From Tahibacter soli (lineage in GTDB: Bacteria; Pseudomonadota; Gammaproteobacteria; Xanthomonadales; Rhodanobacteraceae): a stretch of DNA of 64,000 nt. Under the pieces are notes generated by a model. The model was not told where the DNA came from. It saw only the letters and a program-made list of their open reading frames with translations, and did not search any database. The DNA lies in assembly GCF_025717065.2 (NCBI RefSeq), contig NZ_JAOVZO020000020.1, positions 434,001 to 498,000 on the forward strand, in the 5' to 3' direction. The position numbers and the translations under genes were made by a program. Positions 6,241 through 35,156 of the stretch are shown one piece after another; within the stretch, counting starts at the first letter, position 1; every line of letters begins with the position of its first letter.

Positions 6241-6413
6241 CGCAATGTTCCGAAGAGTGAACCCCGTCGCACAATCGAGTGAACCTCTCGCGGCCTCCGC
6301 GCGATAGACGGCACGAATGCAAGGCGCGTTGCCGGACGACGGAACGCGCGGCGCATCGGCAACGCCCGCGACCTGATGCGGGCCTGACAGTGCCTCTTCC
6401 AAGGAGATCCACC

Positions 6414-6887
6414 ATGAATGCTCGCATCATCGCCGCGCTCGCTTTCGCCCTCGCCTGCTCGCCCGCCGCGTTCGCGCAGAAGAGCAAGTCCGACGTCAAG
6501 ATCGACAACGTCATCGCCACCAACGCCGCCGTGCTCGGCTCCACCGCCAAGCAGAACATCGAAGTCGGCAACGCGAAAGACGGCGGCACCTCGTCGGTCA
6601 CCGGCAAGAACATGATCGTGACGAACGCCGCGGTGCTCGGCTCGACCGCCGAACAGTCCACGCGCGTCGGCAACGCGACCGGCGGCGGCACGTCGACGGT
6701 GAAATTCGACAACCTCATTCAAACGAACGCCGCGGTGCTCGGTTCCAGCGCCAAGCAGAACCTCGAGATCGGCAACTCGGCGAACGGCGGCCAGGCGACG
6801 GTGACGGCGAAGAACATCATCGTCACGAACGCGGCCGTGCTCGGTTCGAAGTCCGACCAGAACGTCAAGCTCGGCAACGCCGAGTAA
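6414..6887 (+). CDS. Small secreted protein with four ~35-residue repeats, candidate amyloid subunit
   Basis: A 157-residue protein with a clear signal peptide (MNARIIAALAFALACSPAAFAQ) and a strong AAGGAG site 8 nt before the ATG at 6414. The mature part is four copies of a repeat with the core TNAAVLGS, then A/S-x-QN-x-x-x-GN and a Gly-rich turn (TNAAVLGSTAKQNIEVGNA; last copy TNAAVLGSKSDQNVKLGNA). The repeats carry regularly spaced Asn, Gln and Gly between alternating hydrophobic residues, as in curlin and other beta-solenoid amyloid subunits, but the sequence is not CsgA. Two genes downstream is a CsgG/HfaB-like lipoprotein, the kind of pore that exports such subunits. I infer an exported fibre or surface-coat subunit. 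The family itself is not one I recognise. Confidence 0.8.
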   Translation: MNARIIAALAFALACSPAAFAQKSKSDVKIDNVIATNAAVLGSTAKQNIEVGNAKDGGTSSVTGKNMIVTNAAVLGSTAEQSTRVGNATGGGTSTVKFDNLIQTNAAVLGSSAKQNLEIGNSANGGQATVTAKNIIVTNAAVLGSKSDQNVKLGNAE

Positions 6888-6899
6888 GACGGCGCCTTC

Positions 6900-7002
6900 G
6901 CGAGGGTCCCGGCGGGTTGCGCCGGGGAGCGGTCGACACGATCCACGCAAGGATCGCTCGCGCAGCGCGATGCAGCGCGCGCCGCCGCACCGGGACCCTC
7001 GC
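6900..7002 (+). repeat. Long inverted repeat between repeat-protein gene and next gene
   Basis: GCGAGGGTCCCGG at 6900-6912 is exactly complementary to CCGGGACCCTCGC at 6990-7002, a perfect 13-bp stem. It closes a 77-base loop that has further GC-rich self-complementary stretches (GGCGGGTTGCGCCGG). It starts 12 bases after the stop codon of the repeat protein. It could protect the upstream message or act as an attenuator that lowers expression of the export genes relative to the subunit, as is common in fimbrial and curli operons. The function is inferred. Confidence 0.55.
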
Positions 7003-7028
7003 CCTCATGCCAGCACGAGGAGTACGCC

Positions 7029-7337
7029 ATGCGTATCGCCGCAGCCCTGATCCTGTGCGCGTTTTCCGCGACGTCGCTCGCCGGCAGCACCGGCCTGGGC
7101 ATCAAGGATCTCAACGACGACATCCGCGCCAGCGTCGTCAAGGAAATGTCCAAGATGAAACGCTACGACGACGGCGGCAGGCGCCGCAACAACGGCGCCG
7201 GCGGCGAGGACGAGCAGCAGAGCGGCTGCAATATGGACATCGGCTCGACCAAGAGCCCGACGCGCGCGAACGGCCCGACGCCGCGCCGCGTGGTGACGGT
7301 CGTCACCGGCAACGTCGTGCAGCTGTGCAATCAGTGA
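7029..7337 (+). CDS. Small secreted protein of the curli-like locus
   Basis: The product is 102 residues long with a signal peptide (MRIAAALILCAFSATSLAGS). The mature part begins with a helix (GIKDLNDDIRASVVKEMSKM), has a Gly/Asn/Arg-rich linker, and ends in a beta-type segment (CNMDIGSTKSP through VVTVVTGNVVQLCN) with two Cys about 30 residues apart that could form a disulfide. GAGG precedes the ATG at 7029. It lies between the repeat protein and the CsgG-like lipoprotein, only 5 bp before the latter. By position it may be an accessory or nucleator protein (compare CsgB, CsgE, CsgF or HfaA), but no homology was recognised. Confidence 0.72.
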   Translation: MRIAAALILCAFSATSLAGSTGLGIKDLNDDIRASVVKEMSKMKRYDDGGRRRNNGAGGEDEQQSGCNMDIGSTKSPTRANGPTPRRVVTVVTGNVVQLCNQ

Positions 7338-7342
7338 CCGCC

Positions 7343-8887
7343 ATGAACGCCCGACGCGCGATCCCGCTATGCACGAGCCTCCTCGTGACCGCTCTGGCCG
7401 GCTGCTCGACCGCGAACACGCGCGCGCCGGTCGTCGGCGCCTACCAGGACCTGCGGCGCGGCCCGATGCTGCCGGTCGAGCGCACCGTCACGAACTTCGA
7501 CGACGCGCTGCGCTGCATGGACGGCCTGCTCGAAACCTACGGCGCGCAGGCGTCGATCCTCGTCGAGAACATCGACGACAAGACGCAGAAAGTGCCGGCC
7601 GGCACGACCGACATGTTCATCACGGCGATGAGCCAGATGACGCGCCGCAGCCGTGCGATCCGCACCGTCGCTTTCGGCGACGACACGAAGAACCTGTCGT
7701 CGTACATGCTGCAGTCGAACTCGCTCGCGGCGTTCCAGCCCGAGCTGATTCCGACCTACGCGGTGCGCGGCTCGATCACGCAGTTCGACGACAATCTCGC
7801 GAAGAAGACCGCCGACGCCGGCGCGACGCTCGGCATCGCGAGCAAGAATTTTTTCGGCTTCGGCGCGTCGAAGAGCTCGTCGGTGAACCTCATCGGCCTC
7901 GATCTCGCGGCGCTGCGCACGAGCGACTTCTCGGTCGTGCCCGGCGTCAACGCGCGCAATACCGCGGCCGTGCTGCAGGAAGGCAAGGGACTCGACGGCG
8001 AAGCCGCGGTGTCGAAGCTCGGCGTCAATTTCATGACGAGCTTCTCCAAGTCCGACGGCAAGAGCGTGGCCGTGCGCAATCTCGTCGAGCTGTCGGCGAT
8101 CGAGCTCATAGGCAAGCTCAACAAGGTGCCGTACTGGCGCTGCCTCGGCATCGATTCGAAACAGGCCGACGTCGCGGCCGAAATCGAGGACTGGCACAAC
8201 GGCATGGGCGGCGCGGAGAAACTCGCGTTCTTCGTGCGCCACCTGACGACGCTGGGCCTGATTCCCGACGACGGCAAGCCGACCGATCCCGCGCGCTTCA
8301 AGCTCGCCTACCAGGCGTACGTCGAAGCGCTCGGAATTGAATATTCCGGACAATTTTCCCTCGACGTGCTGCGCGCGCATTTCGACGCCGACCAGGCGAA
8401 GGTCGGCGAACTCGCCGCCGCGCGCATGCAGGGCCTCGCCGCGACGCAGCTGGGCCTCGCGATCACCGTCGTGCCGCGCGACGGCGGCGAGCAGGTCGGC
8501 TTTCGCATCGACCCGACCGCGAAGACGCATCTGTACTGCTTCCTGCGCGACGAGGGCGGCGCCATCGCGCGCGTCTACCCGAACCGCTGGCAGCGCGACG
8601 CCGCCGTCGCGCCCGGCACGGCGCTCGACCTGCCGCCGCCCGGCACGTTCCGCATCACGCCGCACGCGCAGGCGCCGCAGGTGCTGCGCTGCTACACGAG
8701 CCCCGACTCGCTCGCCGGCAAGCTGCCGCGCGCGCTCGCCGGGCCCGATCTGACGCCGATCCGCGGCGTGGACAGCATCGATGCGCTCGACGCGCGGTTC
8801 GCCGCGCTCGGCGCGCCGCTCGCGCGCATCGCTATCGACTTCCACGGCCGCGGCGCCGGCCTCGTCGCCAACCGCCTGGAGAACTGA
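7343..8887 (+). CDS. CsgG/HfaB-like outer-membrane lipoprotein with C-terminal DUF4384-like domain
   Basis: This 514-residue protein starts at ATG 7343, after the previous stop. It has a lipoprotein signal with lipobox LAGC (Cys21). Residues about 30-290 show the CsgG/HfaB pattern: AYQDLRRGP near the start, AFQPELIPTYAVRGSITQFD, a Gly/Ala/Ser-rich stretch ending in NLIGLDLAALRTSDFSVVPG, and a C-terminal helix ELSAIELIGKLNKVPYWRCL. CsgG forms the nonameric outer-membrane channel for curli, and HfaB the one for holdfast anchor proteins. Residues about 375-475 look like DUF4384 (HLYCFLRDEGGAIARVYPN), a beta-domain often found with caspases and other surface proteins. The fusion is longer than CsgG (277 residues). 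I infer export of the repeat protein encoded upstream. Confidence 0.8.
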   Translation: MNARRAIPLCTSLLVTALAGCSTANTRAPVVGAYQDLRRGPMLPVERTVTNFDDALRCMDGLLETYGAQASILVENIDDKTQKVPAGTTDMFITAMSQMTRRSRAIRTVAFGDDTKNLSSYMLQSNSLAAFQPELIPTYAVRGSITQFDDNLAKKTADAGATLGIASKNFFGFGASKSSSVNLIGLDLAALRTSDFSVVPGVNARNTAAVLQEGKGLDGEAAVSKLGVNFMTSFSKSDGKSVAVRNLVELSAIELIGKLNKVPYWRCLGIDSKQADVAAEIEDWHNGMGGAEKLAFFVRHLTTLGLIPDDGKPTDPARFKLAYQAYVEALGIEYSGQFSLDVLRAHFDADQAKVGELAAARMQGLAATQLGLAITVVPRDGGEQVGFRIDPTAKTHLYCFLRDEGGAIARVYPNRWQRDAAVAPGTALDLPPPGTFRITPHAQAPQVLRCYTSPDSLAGKLPRALAGPDLTPIRGVDSIDALDARFAALGAPLARIAIDFHGRGAGLVANRLEN

Positions 8888-8889
8888 CG

Positions 8890-9210
8890 ATGACATCGCC
8901 GCGATACCTCGGTCTTGCGCTCGCCGCGTTCGGCGCCTGCGCGATCGCCGCCGAGCGGACGACGCCGGCCGAGCCGCCGCCGGCGCTGCTCGCCGATGCC
9001 GGCGAAGGCGACGCCGACGAGATCGACCGCGCGGCGCGCTCGCACGGGCAGACCTCGCGCGTGCTGCGCTGCTGGCAGGAAGGCCGCCTGATCGTCGAAC
9101 GCCCGGTGCGGTCGGTGCCGCCCGAAAGCCTGCGCGCGGTACAGCTCGGCGACGGGCGCGAAGCGATGCGCCTCTACGACCTGCGGAATTCCACATGTCT
9201 CATCGAATGA
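8890..9210 (+). CDS. Small secreted hypothetical protein
   Basis: A 106-residue product whose ATG lies 2 bp after the stop of the CsgG-like gene, so it is almost certainly in the same operon. The N terminus (MTSPRYLGLALAAFGACAIAA) is a probable signal peptide. The mature region has two Cys (in VLRCWQEGRLIVE and RNSTCLIE) around a short beta-rich segment, which suggests a small disulfide-linked periplasmic or surface protein. No family was recognised. By position it may help assembly or export. Confidence 0.7.
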   Translation: MTSPRYLGLALAAFGACAIAAERTTPAEPPPALLADAGEGDADEIDRAARSHGQTSRVLRCWQEGRLIVERPVRSVPPESLRAVQLGDGREAMRLYDLRNSTCLIE

Positions 9211-9332: not shown

Positions 9333-9917
9333 ATGGACAACGACATCGCTCGTGAACTGCTGCGCCGCGTCGTCGCACGCGACGAGGCCGCGTTCGCGAC
9401 CTTGCACCGCGCGCTCGCGCGCCGCGTGTTCGCGTTCGCGATGCGCGGCCTGCGCGACGAAGGGCGCGCCGAGGAAGTGGTCGTCGACACGCTGTTCGAA
9501 GTCTGGAAACATCCCGAGCGCTACGACGGCAGCTGCCTCGTCAGCACCTGGGTGCTCGGCATCGCGCGCAACAAGACGCTGACGCTCGCGCGCGGACTGC
9601 GCGCGAACGAACCGCTGTCGGACGACCTCGCCGAAACGCTCGCGAGCGGCGATCCCGGCGCGTTCGAGGCGATCGCCGAAGTGCAGCGCGAGGCCGGCGT
9701 GAAGCAGTGCATGGAAAAACTCTCGGCGCCGCATCGCGAATGCATGCACCTCGTGTTCTACGAAGGTCTCGCGCTCGCCGACGTCGCCGGCATCCAGCAC
9801 TGTCCGGAAAACACGGTCAAGACGCGCCTGTTCCACGCGCGCAAGAACATCGAGCACTGCCTGCGCCGCCTGCTCGAGCGCGAGGGCGATCTCGAAGGAG
9901 TCGGCGACCATGCGTGA
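9333..9917 (+). CDS. ECF-family RNA polymerase sigma factor
   Basis: A 194-residue sigma factor. Region 2 spans about residues 10-90 (RRVFAFAMRGLRDEGRAEEV, WVLGIARNKTLTLAR). Region 4 spans about residues 125-180 (LSAPHRECMHLVFYEGLALADVAG, then NTVKTRLFHARKNI, the recognition helix). Two Cys flank region 4, which is not usual. I chose ATG 9333 because it begins where the family begins; the longer upstream open frame is a shadow of the preceding genes. A TATACT hexamer at 9293-9298 is a possible -10 element. The anti-sigma gene overlaps its 3' end by 8 bp. It may control the flanking surface genes, which is an inference from position. Confidence 0.9.
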   Translation: MDNDIARELLRRVVARDEAAFATLHRALARRVFAFAMRGLRDEGRAEEVVVDTLFEVWKHPERYDGSCLVSTWVLGIARNKTLTLARGLRANEPLSDDLAETLASGDPGAFEAIAEVQREAGVKQCMEKLSAPHRECMHLVFYEGLALADVAGIQHCPENTVKTRLFHARKNIEHCLRRLLEREGDLEGVGDHA

Positions 9918-10554
9918 CGATGTCGAATGCCTACTGCCGTGGTACGTCAACGGCACGCTTGCCGCCGCCGAGCGCGAGCGCGTCGAACGCGAACTCGCGC
10001 GCGATGCGTCGCTGCGCGGCGCACTCGCGTTCTGGCAACAGGCCGCGCAGGCGCAGCGCACGAGCGCGGCGCCCGTCGCCGAAGACGTGGGCCTGGCTCG
10101 CACGCTCGCGCGCATCCGCGCCGAGTCGGCGCCGGCCGCCGCGTCGCGTCCGGCCACGCCGGCACCGTCGCTGTGGCAGCGCTGGTTCGGCGGCACGTGG
10201 CTCAAGCCCGCGTTCGCCGCGGCGCTCGCCGTGATCGTCGTACAGTCCGGCCTCCTCGTCGGCATCGAACGCACGAAATACCGCGGCGCCGCGCCGCCCG
10301 TGTCGCCGGCGACCGACGCCGCGCTCGCCTCGCGCGTCACGCTGCGCGTCGTGTTCGATCCGTCGGCGACCGAAGGCCAGCTGCGCGTCGCGCTCGCCGC
10401 GGCGAACGCGTGGTACGTCGGAGGTCCCGGCGAGTCCGGCGAATACTGGCTCTCGGTCGCGCCCGAACACGCCGACGCCGCGCTCGAAGCGCTGCGCGCC
10501 AGCGGCCTCGTGCGCGTGGCCGCGACGACGACACAGGCGCCCGCGCCGCAATAG
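9910..10554 (+). CDS. Membrane-bound anti-sigma factor
   Basis: The 214-residue product starts with an anti-sigma-like N-terminal domain (MRDDVECLLPWYVNGTLAAA, then RERVERELARD). It has a single predicted transmembrane segment around residues 97-117 (LKPAFAAALAVIVVQSGLLV) and a periplasmic domain with a beta-alpha-beta pattern (VTLRVVFDPSATEGQLRVAL, YWLSVAPEHADAALEAL). The zinc-binding His/Cys set of classical ZAS domains is incomplete (one Cys). It overlaps the sigma gene (ATG 9910, sigma stop 9917), so translation is coupled. It probably holds the sigma factor at the membrane until an envelope signal releases it. Confidence 0.85.
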   Translation: MRDDVECLLPWYVNGTLAAAERERVERELARDASLRGALAFWQQAAQAQRTSAAPVAEDVGLARTLARIRAESAPAAASRPATPAPSLWQRWFGGTWLKPAFAAALAVIVVQSGLLVGIERTKYRGAAPPVSPATDAALASRVTLRVVFDPSATEGQLRVALAAANAWYVGGPGESGEYWLSVAPEHADAALEALRASGLVRVAATTTQAPAPQ

Positions 10555-10650
10555 TCCCGTGCGCGCCGTCGCGTCCGCCATGCGATCGCGGAGTGTGCGG
10601 AACGTCTCGAAATTCGCGTGAACCGTCGGCGGAAAGCCTGCGATCCATGA

Positions 10651-11331
10651 GTGCCCGGCTCGCGGGCTGCCGCACAGGATCACGATCATGCGCTCCCCCT
10701 GAACTCGATCGCGTTCGCCGTACTCGCCGCGCTGTCCGGCGCCGCGGCGGCGGACACCGTTTACGTCGACGCCGACCAGGTGCCGCGTCCGATCGACGTC
10801 GCACGCGCGCTCGCCGGCGCCGATTTCCAGCCGGCCGTCAAGAAGCGCGGCCTGTCGCTCGAATCCGATGCACCGGCCCAGCGCATCGGCGGCGGCGTAG
10901 AAACCAGGCCCGTCGCTTCAACGTCGCCGAAACCCGTCAAGGTCGCCGCGACCGCGGCGCCGTCGACCGCGCCGGCTCCCGCGCCGGCTGCTGCGCCCGG
11001 CACGCTCGCGGTTGCCGTCGCTTTCGCCTTCGGCTCGGCCGACCTGACGCCGCCCGCGCGCGCGCAGCTCGATTCGATCGCCGAAGGCCTGAAGCTGCTC
11101 AAGGCGGACGCGGCCGTCGTGATCGAAGGCCACACCGATTCGGTCGGTCCGGACGCCTACAATCTCGCGCTGTCGGACCGGCGCGCGGCGGCGGTCAAGC
11201 GCTATCTCGTCGAGCGTCACGGCATCGCCGAACTGCGACTGGCCACGATCGGCAAGGGCAAGACCGAGCCGCTCGCGGATACGCCGCCGAATGCCGCGCG
11301 CAATCGCCGCGTCGCGTTCCGGCTCGGGTGA
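10651..11331 (+). CDS. OmpA-family peptidoglycan-associated protein
   Basis: The last 115 residues form an OmpA C-terminal domain, which binds peptidoglycan: VAFAFGSADLTPPARAQLDS, VIEGHTDSVGPDAYNLALS, DRRAAAVKRYLVERHG and NRRVAFRLG. Before it come an Ala/Pro linker and a hydrophobic signal-like segment (NSIAFAVLAALSGAAAADTV). The open frame begins at GTG 10651, but that start adds an odd polar leader. ATG 10688 opens MRSP and hits a stop after a C5 run; one extra C there would give MRSPLNSIAFAVLAALSG, a textbook signal peptide. So either the start is unusual or one base is missing from the sequence. The protein lies between the sigma/anti-sigma pair and the autotransporter. Confidence 0.85.
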   Translation: MPGSRAAAQDHDHALPLNSIAFAVLAALSGAAAADTVYVDADQVPRPIDVARALAGADFQPAVKKRGLSLESDAPAQRIGGGVETRPVASTSPKPVKVAATAAPSTAPAPAPAAAPGTLAVAVAFAFGSADLTPPARAQLDSIAEGLKLLKADAAVVIEGHTDSVGPDAYNLALSDRRAAAVKRYLVERHGIAELRLATIGKGKTEPLADTPPNAARNRRVAFRLG

Positions 11332-11353
11332 GGCCTGCCGAATCGTTCACGGT

Positions 11354-11382
11354 TTGACGATTCGCGACGCGATAAGTGTAAA
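11354..11382 (+). promoter_or_regulatory. Candidate sigma-70 promoter for autotransporter gene
   Basis: TTGACG at 11354-11359 and TGTAAA at 11377-11382 are separated by 17 bp, about 65 bp before the autotransporter start codon. The surrounding DNA is locally less GC-rich. It would transcribe 11446-16690 separately from the sigma-factor operon. Confidence 0.45.
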
Positions 11383-11445
11383 GCTCGCGCGGCGACGCTC
11401 GCCCCTCGCCGCGCGATGCGCCCCTGCCCTGACAAGGATTCGACC

Positions 11446-14400
11446 ATGAAACGCGACGAGAAGCGGCGCTGGAGCGCGGCGCTGCGCCGCCTGGCAGGCT
11501 GCGTCCTGCCGCTGCTGGCCGCGCTGCCCGTTGTGGGCTTTGCCCAAACGTATAGTGGTGTACAAGTGACGACGACCGGAACCACGTATCCGTTCGGCGC
11601 CCGCAATTTTCCGGCCGACGCGACGCTGGTGCGCCTGGCCATCGTCGCGTCGCCCGGCGGCGACGCGCTCGCATCGCCGACCGCGCCGCTCACCGCGGGC
11701 CAGTTCGAGAACAGCATCAGCGTCGGCGCGGCACCCGGCGTCCGCGTCATCCGGTTCTGCTACGACACCGCGACGACGACGTGCGATCCGACCGCCGGCA
11801 ACAACATCATCCACCTCGGCGCCGTCACGGCGAACTGCACGCTGACCGCGCCGCAGACGAGCGGCCCGGCACCGCTCGCCGTGAACGCGACGGCGAACTG
11901 CACGGTCACGACCGGCGCGAACGTGCGCCTCGACAACGGCGCGTACAACTGGACGCTGCCGCCCGGCGCCGGCGTCACGCCGCCGCCGGCCGTCGGCGGT
12001 CCGTCGACCGCGACGTTCACGCTGACGACGCCCGGCAACTACAACGCGCGCATCGCGCCGACGTTGAATTTTTCCATCACGCGCACCGTCGTCTTCAACG
12101 ACACGCAGCCGGCGACGAACAACCCGGTGCCCGCGACGCCCGTCACGCTGCCGCTGCAGGTGACGACCGCGACGAACCAGGCGCCGACCGCGCAGATCAC
12201 CTCGCCCGCCGACAACCAGACGTTCGACGAACCGGCGTCGTTCGCGATCTCGGCGAACGCGGCCGATACCGACGGCACGATCGCGTCGGTGCAGTTTCTG
12301 CTCGACGGCGCGTCGATCGGCACCGACGCCGCGCCGCCGTATTCGATCGCGTTTCCCGCGAACAAGCCGGCCGGTACTTACACGCTCGTCGCCCGTGCCA
12401 CCGACAACGCCGGCGCAACCGGCGAGAGCGTGCCGGTGCGCGTCGTGGTCTTGCGCCGCGTGCAGCGGCTCGACGTCGTCACGCCGTACGCCGACCTGCG
12501 CTTCACGCCGGGCCGCGAAATCGAAGTGCGCATCCGCGCGAGCGGCGGCCTGGGTCCGGTCGCGAACCAGGATCTCGACTGGACCGTCGCCGGCGGCGGC
12601 TCGACCGCGCAGCCCGGCGTCTGTCCGGCGTCCGACACGCCGCGCACCGGCAGCCTGCGCACCGACGCGAACGGCGAAATCGCGATCCGCTTCGTGCCGA
12701 GCTGCGCCACGACCGCGCGCAATCTCACCGTCGCGACCGCGGCCGGCACGACGCCGGCGATCAGCACCGTCGTGCGCCTGCGCGGGCCGCGCGACATCGA
12801 ACTCGTACTGACCGCGCCGCGCGACGGGGCGACGTACGACGAGGCCGACGCGTTCGAACTGCGTGCGACGCTGACCGACCCCGACGATCGCGTCGCGTCG
12901 GTCGAGTTCACCGCGAACGGCACGCCGGTCGGTTCGGCGAGCGCGGCGCCGCACGCGATCCGCTGGCCCGCGAACCAGCCGCCGGGCACGTATCGCATTG
13001 CCGTGCGCGCGATCGAACGCACCGGCGCGATCATCGACGGCGACGCCGTGACGATCCAGATCACGCGCCGAGCCGGTGCGCTGACCGTGCTGACGACCGG
13101 CACCGACCTCGTCTTCGTGCCCGGCGAACCGGTGCGGCTGCGCGTGCGCGCCACGAGCGCGCAGGGCGGCCCGGCCGCGAACGAGCGTCTGACCTTCGCG
13201 ATCGGCGATGCCGCAGCGGCGAAGGCCGCGTGCGCGCCGGCCGACACGCCGTCGCAGGGCAGCGTCGTCACCGACGCGAACGGCGAGGCGCTGATCGAAT
13301 TCGTGCCGGGCTGCGCATCGAACTCGCGGCGCGTGACGATCGCGTCGGCGACAGATCCATCGGTGCAGGCGAGCGTCGTGCTGCGCGGCCCCGACGCGAA
13401 CGCGAACGCGCTCGGTTCGGGCATCGACGCGCAGGCGATCGTCGCGATGCCCGGCACGGCGACGCCGGTGCCGGTGACGGTCGCCGCGACGAACGGCCAG
13501 CCGATCGTCGGCGCGACGCTCGAGTTCGCGCTGCAGCCGGCGAACGCCGGCACGATCAGCGCGACCGCTACCTCCGACGCGCAAGGCCATGCATCGGCGA
13601 GCCTCGTGCTCGGCGACGGCACGACCGCGGCGAGCGTGCGGGTCTGCGTGCGCGGCCGGCCCGACCTGTGCACCGACATTCCGGTGCGCAGCGCGACGCT
13701 CGCGGTGATCCGGCCCGCCGCCGAACTCGTCGCGCCCGTGCTGCGACAGAGCGTGGAAACCGCGCGCGTGCAGTTGAGCCAAATCCGCTCGCATCTCGCG
13801 ATGTCGCGTTCCGGCAACGGCCACGGTTTTGCCAACGGCCTGAACGTGCGCGTCGGCGGCGCGAGCGTGCCGGCCGCGGGATCGGCGCAGAGCAAGGACG
13901 GCGAAGACGGCGCCGGTGCCGACACGCAGCCGTTCGGCTTCTTCGTCGCGGGCGACGTCGACGTCGGCGAACGCGACTCGCGCGGCGGCCTGCGCAACGG
14001 CTTCAAGGTGACCACGCGCGGCATCACGGCCGGCGTCGACTATCGCTTTTCGTCGGCCTTCGTCGCGGGCGCGGCGCTCGGCGCGATGCGCGCGTCGACC
14101 GATCTCGCCAACGGCGGCGCGCAGGACGCCAGCGGCACGAGCTTCTCGCTGTTCGGGCAGTGGCTGCCGACCGACCGTTGGTATTTGAACGGCGTTTTCA
14201 ACGTCGGCCGCAACAGCTACGACATCGAGCGCCGACTGTACGACGGCTCGGCATTGTTCAGCGACACGGACAGCCGCCAGCGCGCGCTGCAGTTCGAGGC
14301 CGGCTACGCGTTCGCGCGCAACGCGTTCAAGTTCACGCCGTTCCTGCGCTACGAGATCGTGCGCGCCGACATCGACGCGATCCGCGAACGCGGCGACAGT

Positions 14401-14763
14401 ATCGACGCGCTGTACCTGAGCGACACCGGCGTTTCGAGCGACACGCTGAGCACCGGTGCGTACTTCGAATACGCGTTCAGCGGCCGGAGCGGCGTGTGGA
14501 TACCGAGCCTGCGCGTCGAATTCTTCGGCGAAGACCGCGACCAGGAAGAAATGGTCGCACGCCTCCTCGCGGGCGACGCCGGCGCGTTCGCCGTGCCCGA
14601 GGACGACGCGGACGAGCGCTACGGCAGCGTCGGCTTCAACCTGCAGTGGCTCACCGGCACGCGCGGACAGCCGATCTCGAGCTTCATCGGCATCGAGCGC
14701 AGTTTCGGCCGCGCCGACTACCGGGCGACGCGGTACACGCTCGGCGTAAAAATTCCTTTCTGA
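11446..14763 (+). CDS. Ig-repeat autotransporter adhesin (type V, C-terminal beta-barrel)
   Basis: A 1105-residue surface protein. ATG 11446 follows AAGGA at good spacing and gives a signal peptide with a basic start and the core LAGCVLPLLAALPVVGFAQ. The passenger has two bacterial Ig-like modules of the same type (around residues 245-340, ITSPADNQTFDEPASFAISA, and 455-545, LTAPRDGATYDEADAFELRA). Each is followed by an invasin-like module with a conserved Cys pair (GSLRTDANGEIAIRFVPSC and GSVVTDANGEALIEFVPGC). From about residue 825 there is an autotransporter beta-barrel with alternating aromatic strands that ends in TLGVKIPF, the terminal-Phe signal read by the BAM machinery. A coiled segment precedes it (VETARVQLSQIRSHLAMS). 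Likely an adhesin. Confidence 0.88.
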   Translation: MKRDEKRRWSAALRRLAGCVLPLLAALPVVGFAQTYSGVQVTTTGTTYPFGARNFPADATLVRLAIVASPGGDALASPTAPLTAGQFENSISVGAAPGVRVIRFCYDTATTTCDPTAGNNIIHLGAVTANCTLTAPQTSGPAPLAVNATANCTVTTGANVRLDNGAYNWTLPPGAGVTPPPAVGGPSTATFTLTTPGNYNARIAPTLNFSITRTVVFNDTQPATNNPVPATPVTLPLQVTTATNQAPTAQITSPADNQTFDEPASFAISANAADTDGTIASVQFLLDGASIGTDAAPPYSIAFPANKPAGTYTLVARATDNAGATGESVPVRVVVLRRVQRLDVVTPYADLRFTPGREIEVRIRASGGLGPVANQDLDWTVAGGGSTAQPGVCPASDTPRTGSLRTDANGEIAIRFVPSCATTARNLTVATAAGTTPAISTVVRLRGPRDIELVLTAPRDGATYDEADAFELRATLTDPDDRVASVEFTANGTPVGSASAAPHAIRWPANQPPGTYRIAVRAIERTGAIIDGDAVTIQITRRAGALTVLTTGTDLVFVPGEPVRLRVRATSAQGGPAANERLTFAIGDAAAAKAACAPADTPSQGSVVTDANGEALIEFVPGCASNSRRVTIASATDPSVQASVVLRGPDANANALGSGIDAQAIVAMPGTATPVPVTVAATNGQPIVGATLEFALQPANAGTISATATSDAQGHASASLVLGDGTTAASVRVCVRGRPDLCTDIPVRSATLAVIRPAAELVAPVLRQSVETARVQLSQIRSHLAMSRSGNGHGFANGLNVRVGGASVPAAGSAQSKDGEDGAGADTQPFGFFVAGDVDVGERDSRGGLRNGFKVTTRGITAGVDYRFSSAFVAGAALGAMRASTDLANGGAQDASGTSFSLFGQWLPTDRWYLNGVFNVGRNSYDIERRLYDGSALFSDTDSRQRALQFEAGYAFARNAFKFTPFLRYEIVRADIDAIRERGDSIDALYLSDTGVSSDTLSTGAYFEYAFSGRSGVWIPSLRVEFFGEDRDQEEMVARLLAGDAGAFAVPEDDADERYGSVGFNLQWLTGTRGQPISSFIGIERSFGRADYRATRYTLGVKIPF

Positions 14764-14773
14764 AGAAAACGCC

Positions 14774-16690
14774 ATGATGCGCATTCTCGCGACCGCGTTA
14801 CTCGTGTTCCTGGCCGGCTGCGCGACGCAGCCGGCCGGCGGCGGACGGCTCGACGCCTACGACGTCGTCGACTGCGAACTGCCCGGCGCGGTCATCCGCA
14901 TCGGCCGCGAATACGCAACCACCGGCCGCGCGCGCGCGCTGCGCACGAGCGCGCACGACTGCGCGTTGCGCGGCGGCTACTACGAAGAAGCCAATCGCGC
15001 GAACTACGAGACCGCGCTGCGCGTGTGGCTGCCGCCGGCCGAAGACGGCGACGCGCAGGCGCAGTTCTTCGTCGGGCAGATCTACGAGAAAGGCCTTGGC
15101 CGCCAGCCCGACGGCGCGAAGGCCGCGAGCTGGTACGAGCGCGCGGCGGCGCAGGACTACAAAGCGGCGCAGGCGGCGCTCGCGATGCTGACCGAACGCG
15201 GCTACGGCGCGAAACCGGCCGATCCGGCGGCGGCGCTCGCGCTGTATCGCAAGGCGGGCGGACTCGAGCAGCCGCTGGTCTACGCGAGCGAAGTGGAACG
15301 GCGCGAGCGCGAAATCGCGCGGCTGCGCGCCGAACTCGAACAGGCGCGCGACGAGTTGCGTCGCGAACGCGAACGATTGCAGCTGCAGCATCGCTCGTTC
15401 GATCGTCGTATCGAGACGCTGCAGGGCGAGCTCGACGCCGCGCGTGCGCGCTCGGACGCCGCCGCGGTGGCCGCCGCGCAAGCCGCGCTCGACGCGAACG
15501 CGGCGCAGCGCGACGCGAGCGCGCAGGAACTCGCCGCGAATCAGGCGCAGCTCGAACGCTACGCGCTCGGCATCGACAATCTCGCGGCGGCGACGCCGCC
15601 GGTTGCCGAAGGCGCGCAGCCGAGCATCGAGCTCGTCGAGCCCGCGCCGATCGCGGTGCGCGGCCTGATGACGGTTCGCGTGCGCGGCGACGACGCACAC
15701 CAGACGATCGTCGCGCGCATCCGCGCGTCGTCGCCGATCGCGTCGGCGACGATCAACGCGACGCCCGTCGCCGCCGACGCCGACGGCTACGTGCGGCTCG
15801 ATCTCGCGCTGACCGGGCCGACGACGCCCGTCGAGATCGTCGTGGTCGACAAGAACGGCCGCAACGGCAGGATGCCGTTTCTCGTGCTGCGCGAAAACGC
15901 GCTGCCGCAGGCGACGCAGGCGTCCGATGCGGCGAAGAAGCCCGGCCGCTACTTCGCGCTGGTGATCGGCAACGCCGCCTACCGGCACTGGGACTCTCTG
16001 GCGACGCCGCACGAGGACGCCACGCGCGTAGCGACGGTGCTGCGCGAACGCTACGGTTTCGACGTGACCCTGCTCAAAGACGCGACGCGCGCCGACACGC
16101 TGCGCGCATTGTCCGCGTTGCGCGAAAAGCTCGGCGACAACGACAACCTGCTCGTCTACTACTCCGGCCACGGCACGTGGGACAAGGCGAACCTGCAGGC
16201 GTACTGGGTGCCCGTGGACGGCGAAAAGGATTCGATCGCCAACCACATCTCGTCGAGCGACATCACCGACCAGATCGGCGTGATGCGCGCGACGCAGGTG
16301 CTCGTCGTCGCCGACGCGTGCTACGCGGGCGTCATGGTGCGCTCGGTCGCCGATTCGCTGACCGGGCCGCCGGCGAACGCGCGCACGCAGTGGCTCAAGC
16401 AGCGCGCGGGGGTAACGAGCCGCAAGGTGATGAGCTCGGGCAATATCCGCGAAGTGCTCGACGGCGGCGCGGGGCGGCATTCGATCTTCGCCGCGGCGTT
16501 CATCGCGGCGCTGGAGAAGCGCGGCGAGCCGTTCGAGGCGCAGGAGATCTACCGCGAAATCGCACCGCGCGTCGAAGACGCCGCGCGCGGATTCGGCGAG
16601 CAGCAGGAGCCGCAATACGGACAGCTGCGGCACGCGGGGCACGTCGGCGGCGATTTTCTGTTCGTGCCGAAGGGTGCGCGCGGGCCGTAG
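14774..16690 (+). CDS. Caspase-family (C14) lipoprotein with Sel1 repeats and coiled coil
   Basis: This 638-residue lipoprotein (signal MMRILATALLVFLAGC) starts 11 bp after the autotransporter stop, so the two are co-transcribed. Residues about 90-165 hold two Sel1-type repeats (AQFFVGQIYEKGLGRQPDGA, AALAMLTERGYGAKPADPAA). Residues about 175-265 are a charged coiled coil, then comes a beta-domain. Residues about 390-540 are a caspase p20-like domain that starts GRYFALVIGNAAYRHWDSL, with catalytic His in YYSGHG and Cys in VADACYAGVM, so both catalytic residues are present. Its place in the envelope, beside an adhesin, suggests proteolytic processing of surface proteins, though the substrate is unknown. 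Confidence 0.9.
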   Translation: MMRILATALLVFLAGCATQPAGGGRLDAYDVVDCELPGAVIRIGREYATTGRARALRTSAHDCALRGGYYEEANRANYETALRVWLPPAEDGDAQAQFFVGQIYEKGLGRQPDGAKAASWYERAAAQDYKAAQAALAMLTERGYGAKPADPAAALALYRKAGGLEQPLVYASEVERREREIARLRAELEQARDELRRERERLQLQHRSFDRRIETLQGELDAARARSDAAAVAAAQAALDANAAQRDASAQELAANQAQLERYALGIDNLAAATPPVAEGAQPSIELVEPAPIAVRGLMTVRVRGDDAHQTIVARIRASSPIASATINATPVAADADGYVRLDLALTGPTTPVEIVVVDKNGRNGRMPFLVLRENALPQATQASDAAKKPGRYFALVIGNAAYRHWDSLATPHEDATRVATVLRERYGFDVTLLKDATRADTLRALSALREKLGDNDNLLVYYSGHGTWDKANLQAYWVPVDGEKDSIANHISSSDITDQIGVMRATQVLVVADACYAGVMVRSVADSLTGPPANARTQWLKQRAGVTSRKVMSSGNIREVLDGGAGRHSIFAAAFIAALEKRGEPFEAQEIYREIAPRVEDAARGFGEQQEPQYGQLRHAGHVGGDFLFVPKGARGP

Positions 16691-31661: not shown

Positions 31662-33134
31662 TCACAGCGACGTCAGCACGTTGCCGTTCGCGTCGAGCCA
31701 CTGGATCGTGAAGCCGCGAATCGCGCCGCCGCTCGCCGGCGCCGCCGACGCGAGGAACACCGGAATCACGAGATAGCCCGTGCGATGGTTGGGCACGCGA
31801 TCCTGCGCGAACGGGTTGGCGCAGTAGGCGTTCTCGGGCGTCAGGGCCGCGCTCTGCGGATCGAGCGGACACGGATAGCGCGACGCGTAGCTCACCGGCG
31901 GATGCGCAAGGCCGGGCTTGAACGGCAGCGGCGGACCGAAGCCGCCGAACAGCGTGAAGCGCACTTCGAGATCGAGCACCGCTGCATCGTCGACCGTCAG
32001 CACGACGTCGTACCACGTATACGGCAGCAGCGGATTGCGCAGCTGCGTCTCGCACTCGATGCGCGCGTCGCGCCCGTACAGCTCGACCCAGATCTGCCCG
32101 CCCTCGCTGGTGTCGGGCGGACAGTTCGCGCGCGCGGCGAAGCCGACGTTCGCCTTCGCGAAGAAAATGCCGATGCCGTCGACCGGTCCGGCCGAGATGC
32201 CGTCCGAGGCGCCCTGCGCGTGGCCGTACAGCACGATCGGGATATGGCTGACGTTCGAGTCGTCGTCGAACAGGTCGCCGGTATAGAAAGAGAACTTCGC
32301 GCGCATTTTCGCCGCGTTCGCCGGCCGCGGCGTCGAGTTCGACTGCAGGTAGCCGTACAGCGGATCGCGTTCGGTGCCCTTGAGCGCCTCGCGCGATTTC
32401 GGCGGTCGCACGTTTTGTATCGGAATCGTCGTCGGCGCCGCATCGGTGACCGCGATGCCGTTGTAGCGGCCGTCGAATCGCGCCTGCACGGTGTCGTTGA
32501 CGTAGCCGTCGAACACGTAGCCGGCGATGCCGTCGAACGTCCAGCCGGCGTCGACGAGCGCGTCCTTCGCGGCGATGCTGATCGTGTAGCGGTGCTCGCG
32601 GTTGCAGTCGCGTCCGGTCGAGCGGCAGTCCGACAGCCGGTACAGCGCCGTCGCGCCGGGCGGCGGCTGTTTGAAGATGTAGCCTTCGACGCGTTCGAAC
32701 ACGTAGCCGCTCGCGATCGCGGCGTTCGCCTCGACGGCGCTCGCGGTATAGAAGTGTTCGGTTTCCGGCGCGCCCTTGTACAGACGATAGAACGGCAGCG
32801 ACGACGGCGGCTGCGCGCAGGCGAACGCCATCGGCATCGGAAAGCCCATGTCGGGATTCGACGTGCCCGGCAGCGGCGGCTGGCCGCCCGGGCCGGGCAA
32901 GTCCGGCGGCGAGCACGGCAGCCAGCCGACGACGCCGCGGCGCACGGCGCCGTCGATGTTCGCCGAGTCGTCGCTCTGCTTGAGGTCGGTCGTCAGGAAC
33001 GTGTCGCTCTCGGGCACGCCGGGCGCGGTCTCGCCGGCATAGTGCGTTTCGATGAGCTGCACGAGATCGTACGCGTGCGCGCCCGGCGAGCCGAACAGCA
33101 GTGCGGCGACTGCGGCGATGCTGCGAGGTTTCAT
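31662..33134 (-). CDS. Secreted protein with DUF5648-like repeats (paralogue 1)
   Basis: A 490-residue secreted protein. ATG 33134 follows GGAGG and gives a signal peptide (MKPRSIAAVAALLFGSPGAH). Residues about 110-225 carry two copies of a DUF5648-like motif: FYRLYKGAPETEHFYTASAV, VFERVEGYIFKQP, and HRYTISIAAKDALVDAGWTF, DGIAGYVFDG. The C-terminal half is beta-rich with paired Cys and several strictly conserved blocks shared with its neighbour (RAKFSFYTGDLFDDDS, IPIVLYGHAQGASDGISAGP, GQIWVELYG, GFTIQWLDANGNVLTSL). The two proteins are clearly paralogues in tandem. Role unknown; likely an extracellular enzyme or adhesin. Confidence 0.85.
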   Translation of the reverse strand: MKPRSIAAVAALLFGSPGAHAYDLVQLIETHYAGETAPGVPESDTFLTTDLKQSDDSANIDGAVRRGVVGWLPCSPPDLPGPGGQPPLPGTSNPDMGFPMPMAFACAQPPSSLPFYRLYKGAPETEHFYTASAVEANAAIASGYVFERVEGYIFKQPPPGATALYRLSDCRSTGRDCNREHRYTISIAAKDALVDAGWTFDGIAGYVFDGYVNDTVQARFDGRYNGIAVTDAAPTTIPIQNVRPPKSREALKGTERDPLYGYLQSNSTPRPANAAKMRAKFSFYTGDLFDDDSNVSHIPIVLYGHAQGASDGISAGPVDGIGIFFAKANVGFAARANCPPDTSEGGQIWVELYGRDARIECETQLRNPLLPYTWYDVVLTVDDAAVLDLEVRFTLFGGFGPPLPFKPGLAHPPVSYASRYPCPLDPQSAALTPENAYCANPFAQDRVPNHRTGYLVIPVFLASAAPASGGAIRGFTIQWLDANGNVLTSL

Positions 33135-33350
33135 GCGTACCTCCGTCGACATGGAACGACCGTCGGACCGACCGGCCCGCGCACCATAGCGGCGAAAAGC
33201 TGAAGAAACCCGTAACTAATTTTCAACTAATCGTTAAAGGATACATCAGAACAATCGCGGCTCGCCGCGCCTCGGCGTGCCGATGCCGGGCTGATCCTTG
33301 CATCGCTGCGAATGCCGCGACCTTGCGTCGCCCGGCGGCTCGGCGCCGGC

Positions 33351-33390: not shown

Positions 33391-34857
33391 TTACAGCGAG
33401 GTCAGCACGTTGTCGCTCGCATCGAGCCACTGGATCGTGAAGTTCGTGATGGTGCCGCCGGTCGCCGGCGTCGCCGACGCTTCGAACACGGGAATCACGA
33501 GATAGCCCGTGCGCTGGTTCGGCATGCGATCCTGCGCGAACGGATTGGCGCAGTGCGCGTTCGCGGCCGTCAGCGTCACCGCCGTCGGATACAGCGGGCA
33601 CGGATAGCGCGAGGCGTAGCTCACCGGCGGATGCACATGGCCGGTCTTGAACGGCAGTCGCGGGCCGGTGCCGCCGGCGCTGCTGAAACGCACTTCCAGA
33701 TCGAGCACCGCGTTGTCGTCGACCGTCAGCACGAGGTCGTACCAGGTGCTCGCGGCGAGCGGCGTGTCGAGATTCGTTTCGCATTCGACCCGCGCGCGCG
33801 CGCCGTACAGCTCGACCCAGATCTGGCCGCCGGCGACCGGCGTTCCGGGGCAGGACGTGCTCCACGTCGAACTCGCCTTGGCGAAGAAGATGCCGATACC
33901 GTCGACCGGCGCCGCCGAAATGCCGTCCGTCGCCGCCTGCGCATGGCCGTAGAGCACGATCGGGATATGGTTGATGTTCGACGACGCGCCGAACAGGTCG
34001 CCGGTATAGAACGAGAACTTCGCGCGCATCTTCGCGGCGCCGGCCGGCCGCGGCGTCGAGTTCGACTGCCGGTAGCCGTGCAGCGGATTGCGCTCGGTGC
34101 CCTTCACCACCAGCGGCGACTTCGTCGGCGTGACGTTCTGTATCGCGACCGCGGTCGGCGAAACGCTGTTGACGGTGATGCCGTTGTAGGTGCCGTTGAA
34201 TTTCGCCGGCACCGTGTCGTTCGCGTAGCTGTCGTAGACGTAGCCGGCGATGCCCGCATAGCCCCAGCCGTCGGCGATCAGCTGGTCGCGCGCGTACGAG
34301 CTGATCGTGTAGCGATGCTCGAAGTCGCAGCCGCCGGCGACCGGCCAGCACTTCGCGAGCTGATACAGCGCCGTCGAGCCGATCGGCGGCGTCTGGAAGA
34401 TATAGCCTTCGACGCGCTCGAACACGTAGCCGTTCGCAATGGCGCTGTTCGCTTCGGCGACGCTGCGCGTATAGAAATGATCCGTATCGGGCGCCCCCTT
34501 GTACAGACGATAGAACGGGTGCGAGAGAGGCGGCTTCGCGCACGTGAAGTTCATCGGCGTGCCCGCATCGAATCCCATGTTGGGATTCGACGTTCCGGGC
34601 AGCGGCGACTCGCCGTTGGGCCCGAGCGTCGTCGGCGGCGCGCACGGCAGCCACGCCGCGACGCCGCGCCGAACTCCGCCGTGGATGTCGACGGCGGCGG
34701 TGTCCTGGCCGATGTCGGTCGTCAGGAACGTGTCGCGCGACACGGGATTGTGCGATTCGAACAATTGCACGAGATCGAGGTTGATCGCGTGCGCCGTGCC
34801 GGTCGCACAGAGCGCGACCAGTGCCGCGGCGATGCCTCGCTTGATGCCAATTGCCAT
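33391..34857 (-). CDS. Secreted protein with DUF5648-like repeats (paralogue 2)
   Basis: A 488-residue secreted protein. ATG 34857 follows GGAGA and gives a signal peptide (MAIGIKRGIAAALVALCATG). It has the same layout as the neighbour at 31662-33134: a Cys-containing N-terminal part, two DUF5648-like units (FYRLYKGAPDTDHFYTRSVA, VFERVEGYIFQTPP; HRYTISSYARDQLIADGWGY, AGIAGYVYDSY), then a conserved beta domain (RAKFSFYTGDLFGASSNINH, GQIWVELYGARARVECETNL) and the end FTIQWLDASDNVLTSL. The copies have diverged across the whole length, so the duplication is old. Each gene has its own signal and upstream region. Confidence 0.85.
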   Translation of the reverse strand: MAIGIKRGIAAALVALCATGTAHAINLDLVQLFESHNPVSRDTFLTTDIGQDTAAVDIHGGVRRGVAAWLPCAPPTTLGPNGESPLPGTSNPNMGFDAGTPMNFTCAKPPLSHPFYRLYKGAPDTDHFYTRSVAEANSAIANGYVFERVEGYIFQTPPIGSTALYQLAKCWPVAGGCDFEHRYTISSYARDQLIADGWGYAGIAGYVYDSYANDTVPAKFNGTYNGITVNSVSPTAVAIQNVTPTKSPLVVKGTERNPLHGYRQSNSTPRPAGAAKMRAKFSFYTGDLFGASSNINHIPIVLYGHAQAATDGISAAPVDGIGIFFAKASSTWSTSCPGTPVAGGQIWVELYGARARVECETNLDTPLAASTWYDLVLTVDDNAVLDLEVRFSSAGGTGPRLPFKTGHVHPPVSYASRYPCPLYPTAVTLTAANAHCANPFAQDRMPNQRTGYLVIPVFEASATPATGGTITNFTIQWLDASDNVLTSL

Positions 34858-35156
34858 TTCCGGTTCTCCATCGGTAGAAACGCGATTACCCGAAGCGCCG
34901 CGCAAGCGGCAACCGCCGACCCGCGCGCCACGACGACTTCTTCCAAAATTGAATTTCAACAACTTTTTCAAATTTAAGTCCGCTCACAACTAGTACATAC
35001 CGGAAAAGAGCGAAAAAGTTGATCACGCGCGCCGCGGTCGCCGACATTGATCCGCGTCACGGAATACGCCGCGGCAATCGTCATCATCCGCACACATTCG
35101 CGCACGACACTGCGCGGTCCAGCGGCCGGGGGGCCGTTCACACGGGAGAGGGAGAG
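34858..35156. promoter_or_regulatory. AT-rich divergent control region with 9-bp inverted repeat
   Basis: This 299-bp gap separates the DUF5648-like gene (minus) and the nuclease gene (plus). Its middle (about 34945-35025) is far more AT-rich than the surroundings. AACTTTTTC at 34961-34969 is repeated as GAAAAAGTT at 35012-35020. No promoter could be fixed with confidence, but both genes' promoters must lie here. The upstream region of paralogue 1 (33190-33245) is also AT-rich with TAACTAATTTTCAACTAA. Confidence 0.45.

Follow-up and report, generated by a model that had tools for sequence, protein, structure and literature searches.

A 64,000-nucleotide stretch of the 6.65-Mb Tahibacter soli genome (contig NZ_JAOVZO020000020.1, positions 434,001 to 498,000; hereafter the window) carries a real, conserved export locus from a branch of the CsgG/HfaB type, and one of its genes encodes a candidate subunit for a solenoid fibre. 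We consider it probable that this branch of outer-membrane export systems secretes an open-ended β-solenoid protein from which a fibre is built. An initial annotation, made from the DNA letters alone, had proposed a curli-like export locus with a candidate amyloid subunit, and our analysis supports that interpretation, with export and fibre assembly still conjectural. Neither of the two results that the annotation had named as counting against it, the lack of any CsgG match by sequence model or structure and the failure of the two genes to co-occur among related genomes, was obtained when we looked for them. The four open reading frames (ORFs) on which it drew are all present on the forward strand: a repeat protein that is the candidate fibre subunit (P0001, 6414..6887, 157 amino acids (aa)), a small secreted two-cysteine protein (P0002, 7029..7337, 102 aa), an exporter lipoprotein with the lipobox LAGC (7343..8887, 514 aa) and a second small secreted protein, which we call the CWQ protein after its CWQEGRLI motif and which also has a C-terminal CLI (P0004, 8890..9210, 106 aa). 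Intergenic distances of 141, 5 and 2 bp mean that the tight spacing ascribed to all four genes holds for the last three but not for the repeat gene. Comparison with the other two genus orthologues indicates purifying selection on both the exporter (non-synonymous divergence, dN, 0.30; synonymous divergence, dS, 0.9) and the repeat gene (dN 0.20, dS 0.6–1.1). We recognised no description of the cluster in the open-access literature, a scope that leaves out subscription papers and preprints.

Gene linkage and the exporter fold

The exporter and repeat genes travel together, occurring in the same three of eight genus genomes and near each other in most of the wider loci. One of the three genomes (G005) holds a second, diverged locus, L009, with its parts in the same order; its exporter (6253-7869, minus strand) has PG_binding_1 intact, placed after the CsgG-like part and before DUF4384, and the locus also encodes two unlike subunits of two rungs each, together with a two-cysteine protein. 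Among 61 relatives, mostly from outside the genus, the exporter was found only in the three genus genomes, and its distribution is patchy because it occurs in 7 of 369 class and 20 of 398 phylum genomes. A contig scan with the single exporter protein as query returned no relatives; a pattern scan blind to neighbouring genes, run with an alignment as query, returned 32 loci, or 33 with the window. Their names cover Rhodanobacteraceae, Burkholderiales, Rhodocyclaceae, Chromatiaceae, Azospirillum, Roseicella, Caulobacter, Acidovorax, Comamonas and Magnetococcales, and the family is widespread rather than peculiar to one genome. These loci are not independent, including as they do four from Acidovorax, four from Comamonas and several near-identical pairs.

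A secreted repeat ORF lies within 3.5 kb of the exporter in 28 of the 33 loci. The repeat detector gave 46 matches in 219 kb near the exporter versus 4 in 280 kb further off, and 28 in 108 kb when upstream same-strand matches alone were counted; some of the near matches are non-subunit proteins encoded downstream (in Acidovorax and Comamonas, pentapeptide proteins), and three of the four far matches are one orthologous ORF, apparently out of frame. In L032, L037 and L041 the exporter was positioned manually for these neighbour counts. In a second sample chosen without regard to neighbours, 15 of the 23 loci with enough upstream sequence had a repeat ORF, with at least three loci (L105, L106 and L108) possibly repeating L049, L033 and L036 of the first.

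The exporter consists of a CsgG/HfaB-like domain (about residues 46-270), a helical region (about residues 275-350) that corresponds to the Pfam peptidoglycan-binding domain PG_binding_1 in 19 of 32 relatives (E ≤ 0.01), and DUF4384 (residues 382-439). The last of these, predicted by the initial annotation, was confirmed by hidden Markov model (HMM) search (PF14326, 37.6 bits, above the 27-bit cut-off) and was matched at E ≤ 0.01 in 31 of 32 relatives. As that annotation had held, the joining of a CsgG-like part to DUF4384 sets the exporter apart from known systems; many relatives have the peptidoglycan-binding domain as well. An alignment of the window protein and 31 relatives (32 of the 33 rows, with misframed L032 left out and the L037 row partial) contains 22 invariant columns, including CMD near 58 and PYW-x-C near 263, and keeps the lipobox-column cysteine in 30 of the 32 sequences.

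The AlphaFold model of the exporter (mean predicted local distance difference test score (pLDDT) 78.9, predicted template modelling score 0.65) bore out the claimed likeness to CsgG at the level of fold: Foldseek ranks 1-25 were all CsgG (E 1.1e-7 to 4.6e-5, probability 1.00), with membrane-inserted forms at ranks 1, 2, 4 and 5 and FlgT, HpaA and PelC at lower ranks. The model has four long strands (139-159, 175-192, 198-213 and 219-234), which would fit two hairpins; the loop at 157-176 in one putative hairpin is of low confidence. The closest named relative proved to be HfaB rather than CsgG. The NCBIfam HfaB model (NF037935) matches the window exporter at 19.7 bits (E 3.9e-4), missing the equivalog cut-off of 300 bits, and matches 13 of 32 relatives at E ≤ 0.01 (best 3.3e-9), while a profile comparison aligned the CsgG-like domain with HfaB over 208 of 245 columns (E 5.2e-6, probability 86). 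The exporter family is nonetheless a branch separate from HfaB itself, because in the Caulobacter strain to which L045 belongs hfaB (424.7 bits) sits at a locus of its own, apart from the exporter-family gene, and the HfaB model at E ≤ 0.1 did not pick up the latter. The ORFs flanking that hfaB were taken as HfaA and HfaD from position and size alone.

The genome's only PF03783 (CsgG) match (E 1.2e-54) is a secreted protein of 239 aa about 350 kb away (L010 5822-6538, minus strand), which also matches LpoB; a whole-genome search with PF03783 at E ≤ 0.001 did not return the window exporter. We considered this other protein (C20:81896-82459) as an alternative exporter and rejected it, since inspection by eye of the surrounding ORFs of at least 120 aa showed no obvious repeat subunit.

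Repeat subunit and alternating charges

The repeat protein consists of a signal peptide, read by eye, and four 34-residue rungs, as the initial annotation had recognised. Its best self-alignment score is 266 at offset 34 (56 of 101 residues identical) versus a maximum of 42 in 1,000 shuffles, and 14 of the first 30 rung positions, including TNAAVLGS, Q and GN, are identical in all four rungs. A structure model suggests a β-solenoid: it is all-β, and its strand pattern repeats at 34-residue intervals (mean pLDDT 86.5). Orthologues of the protein are P0012 and P0013, and a repeat-profile search of the window's genome found the window gene alone. Across 21 subunits, the set left after removal of near-duplicates and still containing related pairs, best periods are mainly 31-43 residues, with only a weak period of 61 in L029. 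Some subunits have two rungs and those of some relatives up to about 12. L023 and L024, from two betaproteobacterial metagenome-assembled genomes, encode a second subunit of 391 aa and about 12 rungs downstream of the exporter (about 10620-11800). L080 and L081 carry near-identical two-rung subunit genes in tandem (two and three copies) upstream of the exporter, and the last rung of these subunits terminates in a C...C motif resembling that of the two-cysteine protein.

Charged residues at equivalent positions tend to change sign from one rung to the next. In the window protein, rung 1 (6489..6590) has D31, K46 and E50; rung 2 (6591..6692) has K65, E80 and R84, with signs reversed relative to rung 1; rung 3 (6693..6794) has D99 and K114; and rung 4 (6795..6884) has K133 and D148. 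All seven pairs in neighbouring rungs are opposite and all six pairs two rungs apart are alike. Over the 21 subunits, neighbouring rungs gave 69 opposite versus 21 like charges and rungs two apart gave 9 opposite versus 53 like, and opposite pairs outnumbered like pairs in 14 of the 21 proteins. Permuting charge labels within each protein produced a mean of 41.8 opposite pairs (s.d. 4.7), and none of 2,000 permutations reached 69; the test ignores descent, and alternation in long proteins may stem from duplication of a two-rung unit. A curlin-type control gave 2 opposite versus 21 like pairs in four proteins, a weak comparison in that three of them are mostly acidic and a looser threshold was used. 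Complementary charges alternating between stacked layers are described for the two-layer HET-s solenoid in the excerpted text of PMC9201691, and the alternation seen here may serve stacking.

The two-cysteine family lies upstream of the exporter in 27 of the 33 loci, and 16 of the 33 have the CWQ protein; the iterative models behind both counts absorbed a few wrong segments, and their E-values are rough because of it. Cleaner evidence comes from a hand-picked alignment of 19 two-cysteine sequences, in which the only invariant positions are the two cysteines. In the window protein these are C67 and C100, both within the mature part and spaced by 33 residues, or about one rung. The two-cysteine profile gave four matches in the 369 class genomes, three of them adjoining an exporter; the fourth is weak, contains a stop and comes from a genome without an exporter, and four of the seven exporter-bearing genomes gave no match. 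P0002 matched nothing in Pfam at E ≤ 10 and P0004 only DUF7283 (E 0.16). The two-cysteine protein is a candidate cap, nucleator or chaperone.

Proposed mechanism and competing readings

From three computed results, the exporter fold, the gene linkage and the charge pattern, we infer a pore, export, a fibre and a role for the two-cysteine protein. The four core proteins would enter the periplasm, to judge from their signal peptides and lipobox, and the lipoprotein, with its predicted CsgG fold, would build an outer-membrane pore that in many relatives could be held to the cell wall by the peptidoglycan-binding domain, with DUF4384 as a putative periplasmic module. By analogy with curli, the four-rung protein would cross this pore unfolded and, outside the cell, adopt the predicted open-ended β-solenoid; solenoids might then stack head to tail, guided by their sign-alternating rungs, into an amyloid-like fibre or coat. 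The two-cysteine protein, its cysteines one rung length apart, could, more speculatively, act as a disulphide-closed cap or nucleator, and the adjoining pair of extracytoplasmic function (ECF) sigma and anti-sigma genes may regulate the locus.

Several results weigh against a fibre-exporting system of this kind. The exporter matches PF03783 below threshold (16.0 bits, E 0.0074), short of the curated cut-off of 20.8 bits, which the genus orthologues also miss (16.7 and 19.3 bits); CsgG is matched at E ≤ 0.01 in just 5 of 32 relatives, and the HfaB matches listed all fall far under 300 bits. Compared by profile with the PF03783 protein of its own genome, the exporter scores poorly (E 0.0018, probability 15), and superposition on CsgG is loose (template modelling (TM) score by target 0.44-0.57, root-mean-square deviation 8-16 Å, two low-confidence stretches). 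The solenoid model was built on 8 sequences, with repeats inflating its confidence; its best Protein Data Bank (PDB) matches, FapC and then CsgA fibrils, are weak (probability 0.16-0.20, TM 0.11-0.20), and a sequence search of the subunit against the PDB gave no match. Charge alternation fails, with more like pairs, in 3 of 21 subunits (L009_10, L027 and L030) and is uninformative, with tied or no pairs, in another 4. The detector found no repeat protein in 5 of the 33 loci and in 8 of the 23 of the second sample; upstream room in L034 was just 417 bases, and repeat proteins seen by eye in L047, L107 and L123 were overlooked and left uncounted.

The kinship with HfaB raises the question of whether the repeat protein is an anchor rather than a fibre. 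According to the excerpted text of PMC6707917, surface placement of HfaA and HfaD depends on HfaB, and these partners anchor the holdfast; in the HfaABD system of Caulobacter, as in the window, a CsgG-fold lipoprotein adjoins secreted surface proteins, and HfaB is the best profile match of the exporter. A short repeat protein placed on the surface in this manner, without long fibres, might attach polysaccharide or the immunoglobulin-like (Ig)/autotransporter protein found nearby in 6 of 33 loci, and the small size of the subunits, some with two rungs, would suit it. We nevertheless find such an anchor unlikely. No polysaccharide genes were recognised among the window genes examined up to 16690 (an annotation not extended to the flanks of other loci), profile comparison of the subunit with the presumed HfaD ORF showed no similarity (E 0.54), and the long subunits and tandem subunit genes of some relatives suit a polymer. 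HfaB itself differs, too: that of L050 (347 aa), judged by length alone, lacks the DUF4384 and peptidoglycan-binding extension, the window exporter misses the HfaB cut-off by far, and the Caulobacter strain has both genes at separate loci. A periplasmic scaffold without a pore, comparable to fold relatives such as PelC, FlgT or LpoB-type proteins, with the repeat protein as a periplasmic or outer-membrane-associated structural protein, strikes us as improbable. It would account for FlgT, HpaA and PelC in the fold search, for peptidoglycan-binding and OmpA proteins that suggest a wall-linked structure, and for the low confidence of loop 157-176, but CsgG occupies the first 25 Foldseek ranks, membrane-inserted forms among the highest, and the four long modelled strands would fit two hairpins.

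Ordinary curli, or a degenerate csg operon, we regard as scarcely credible. The window family shares with curli the CsgG fold, a secreted repeat subunit rich in N, Q, G and S and a predicted β-solenoid, and Q-x-G-x-x-N, the minimal curli motif in the excerpted text of PMC3521004, is present in some betaproteobacterial relatives. Yet PF07012 (curlin) matched none of the repeat proteins scanned and nothing in the window's genome at E ≤ 1e-5, in agreement with the initial view that the subunit is not CsgA; rungs are 31-43 residues, not the 23 ± 5 of the curlin repeat (excerpt of PMC10192328, which also describes open-ended solenoids as polymerising); and the family has three predicted strands per rung, extra exporter domains and charge alternation. 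We accordingly rejected curli proper, P0002 and P0004, the two small proteins checked, matching no CsgE or CsgF model. A 2012 curli survey reports many non-specific CsgG matches, likely paralogues (excerpt of PMC3521004), which fits a wider CsgG-like family. The amyloid system Fap of Pseudomonas exports via the FapF barrel. Its FapC fibril is the weak top Foldseek match of the subunit model, with a TM-score of just 0.11. The HET-s solenoid resembles the candidate subunit in its three strands per layer and complementary alternating charges (excerpt of PMC9201691), but is fungal and cytosolic, and we claim no homology.

Beyond the export of a solenoid fibre subunit, which we favour, we offer tentatively, and with rather more doubt than conviction, a joint reading in which these loci form a third class of CsgG-fold secretion system, with a wall-tied pore, a HET-s-like open-ended solenoid (rungs of about 35 residues, each with three strands), charge-set stacking and a single-rung, disulphide-closed cap or seed. 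The class would span alpha-, beta- and gammaproteobacteria and Magnetococcales, and an even rung number, four in the window protein, would keep the alternation across subunit junctions. If true, a widespread fibre-export system would join the few known bacterial functional amyloids, open to experiment in genera already in culture, Comamonas and Acidovorax among them, and oppositely charged rungs would provide a simple design rule for in-register fibre stacking, a rule so far known, in the literature covered, from a fungal prion.

Neighbouring genes

The locus is longer than the 6414-9210 first assigned to it: the unit conserved within the genus extends to about 16690, with all further genes on the forward strand. 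Homologues were counted with phmmer at E ≤ 1e-3, the window included. An ECF-type sigma factor (9333..9917; 7 of 33 loci), named by homology to the L021 copy, which matches Sigma70_r2 and r4, is followed by a probable anti-sigma factor (9910..10554; zf-HC2 under cut-off, E 0.0035) and an OmpA-family protein (10651..11331; PF00691, E 2.7e-24; start codon uncertain), with OmpA homologues in 17 of 33 loci at varying strand and closeness. The protein with Ig-like repeats and an autotransporter β-domain (11446..14763) has its homologues in the six loci noted above, and a protein with Sel1 repeats and a caspase (peptidase C14) domain (14774..16690; PF00656, E 5.1e-24; lipobox by eye) recurs at E < 1e-90 in 7 of 33, in clusters of beta- and gammaproteobacterial relatives. 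Its YSGHG and DACYAG motifs look like what we take to be an intact His-Cys dyad. The association of the cluster with caspase-domain, autotransporter and OmpA genes, seen in several lineages, merits follow-up. Further along the window, two adjoining minus-strand ORFs (31662-33152 and 33391-34971) have similar N-terminal parts (Y/N-x-LVQL-E) and are possibly tandem duplicates.

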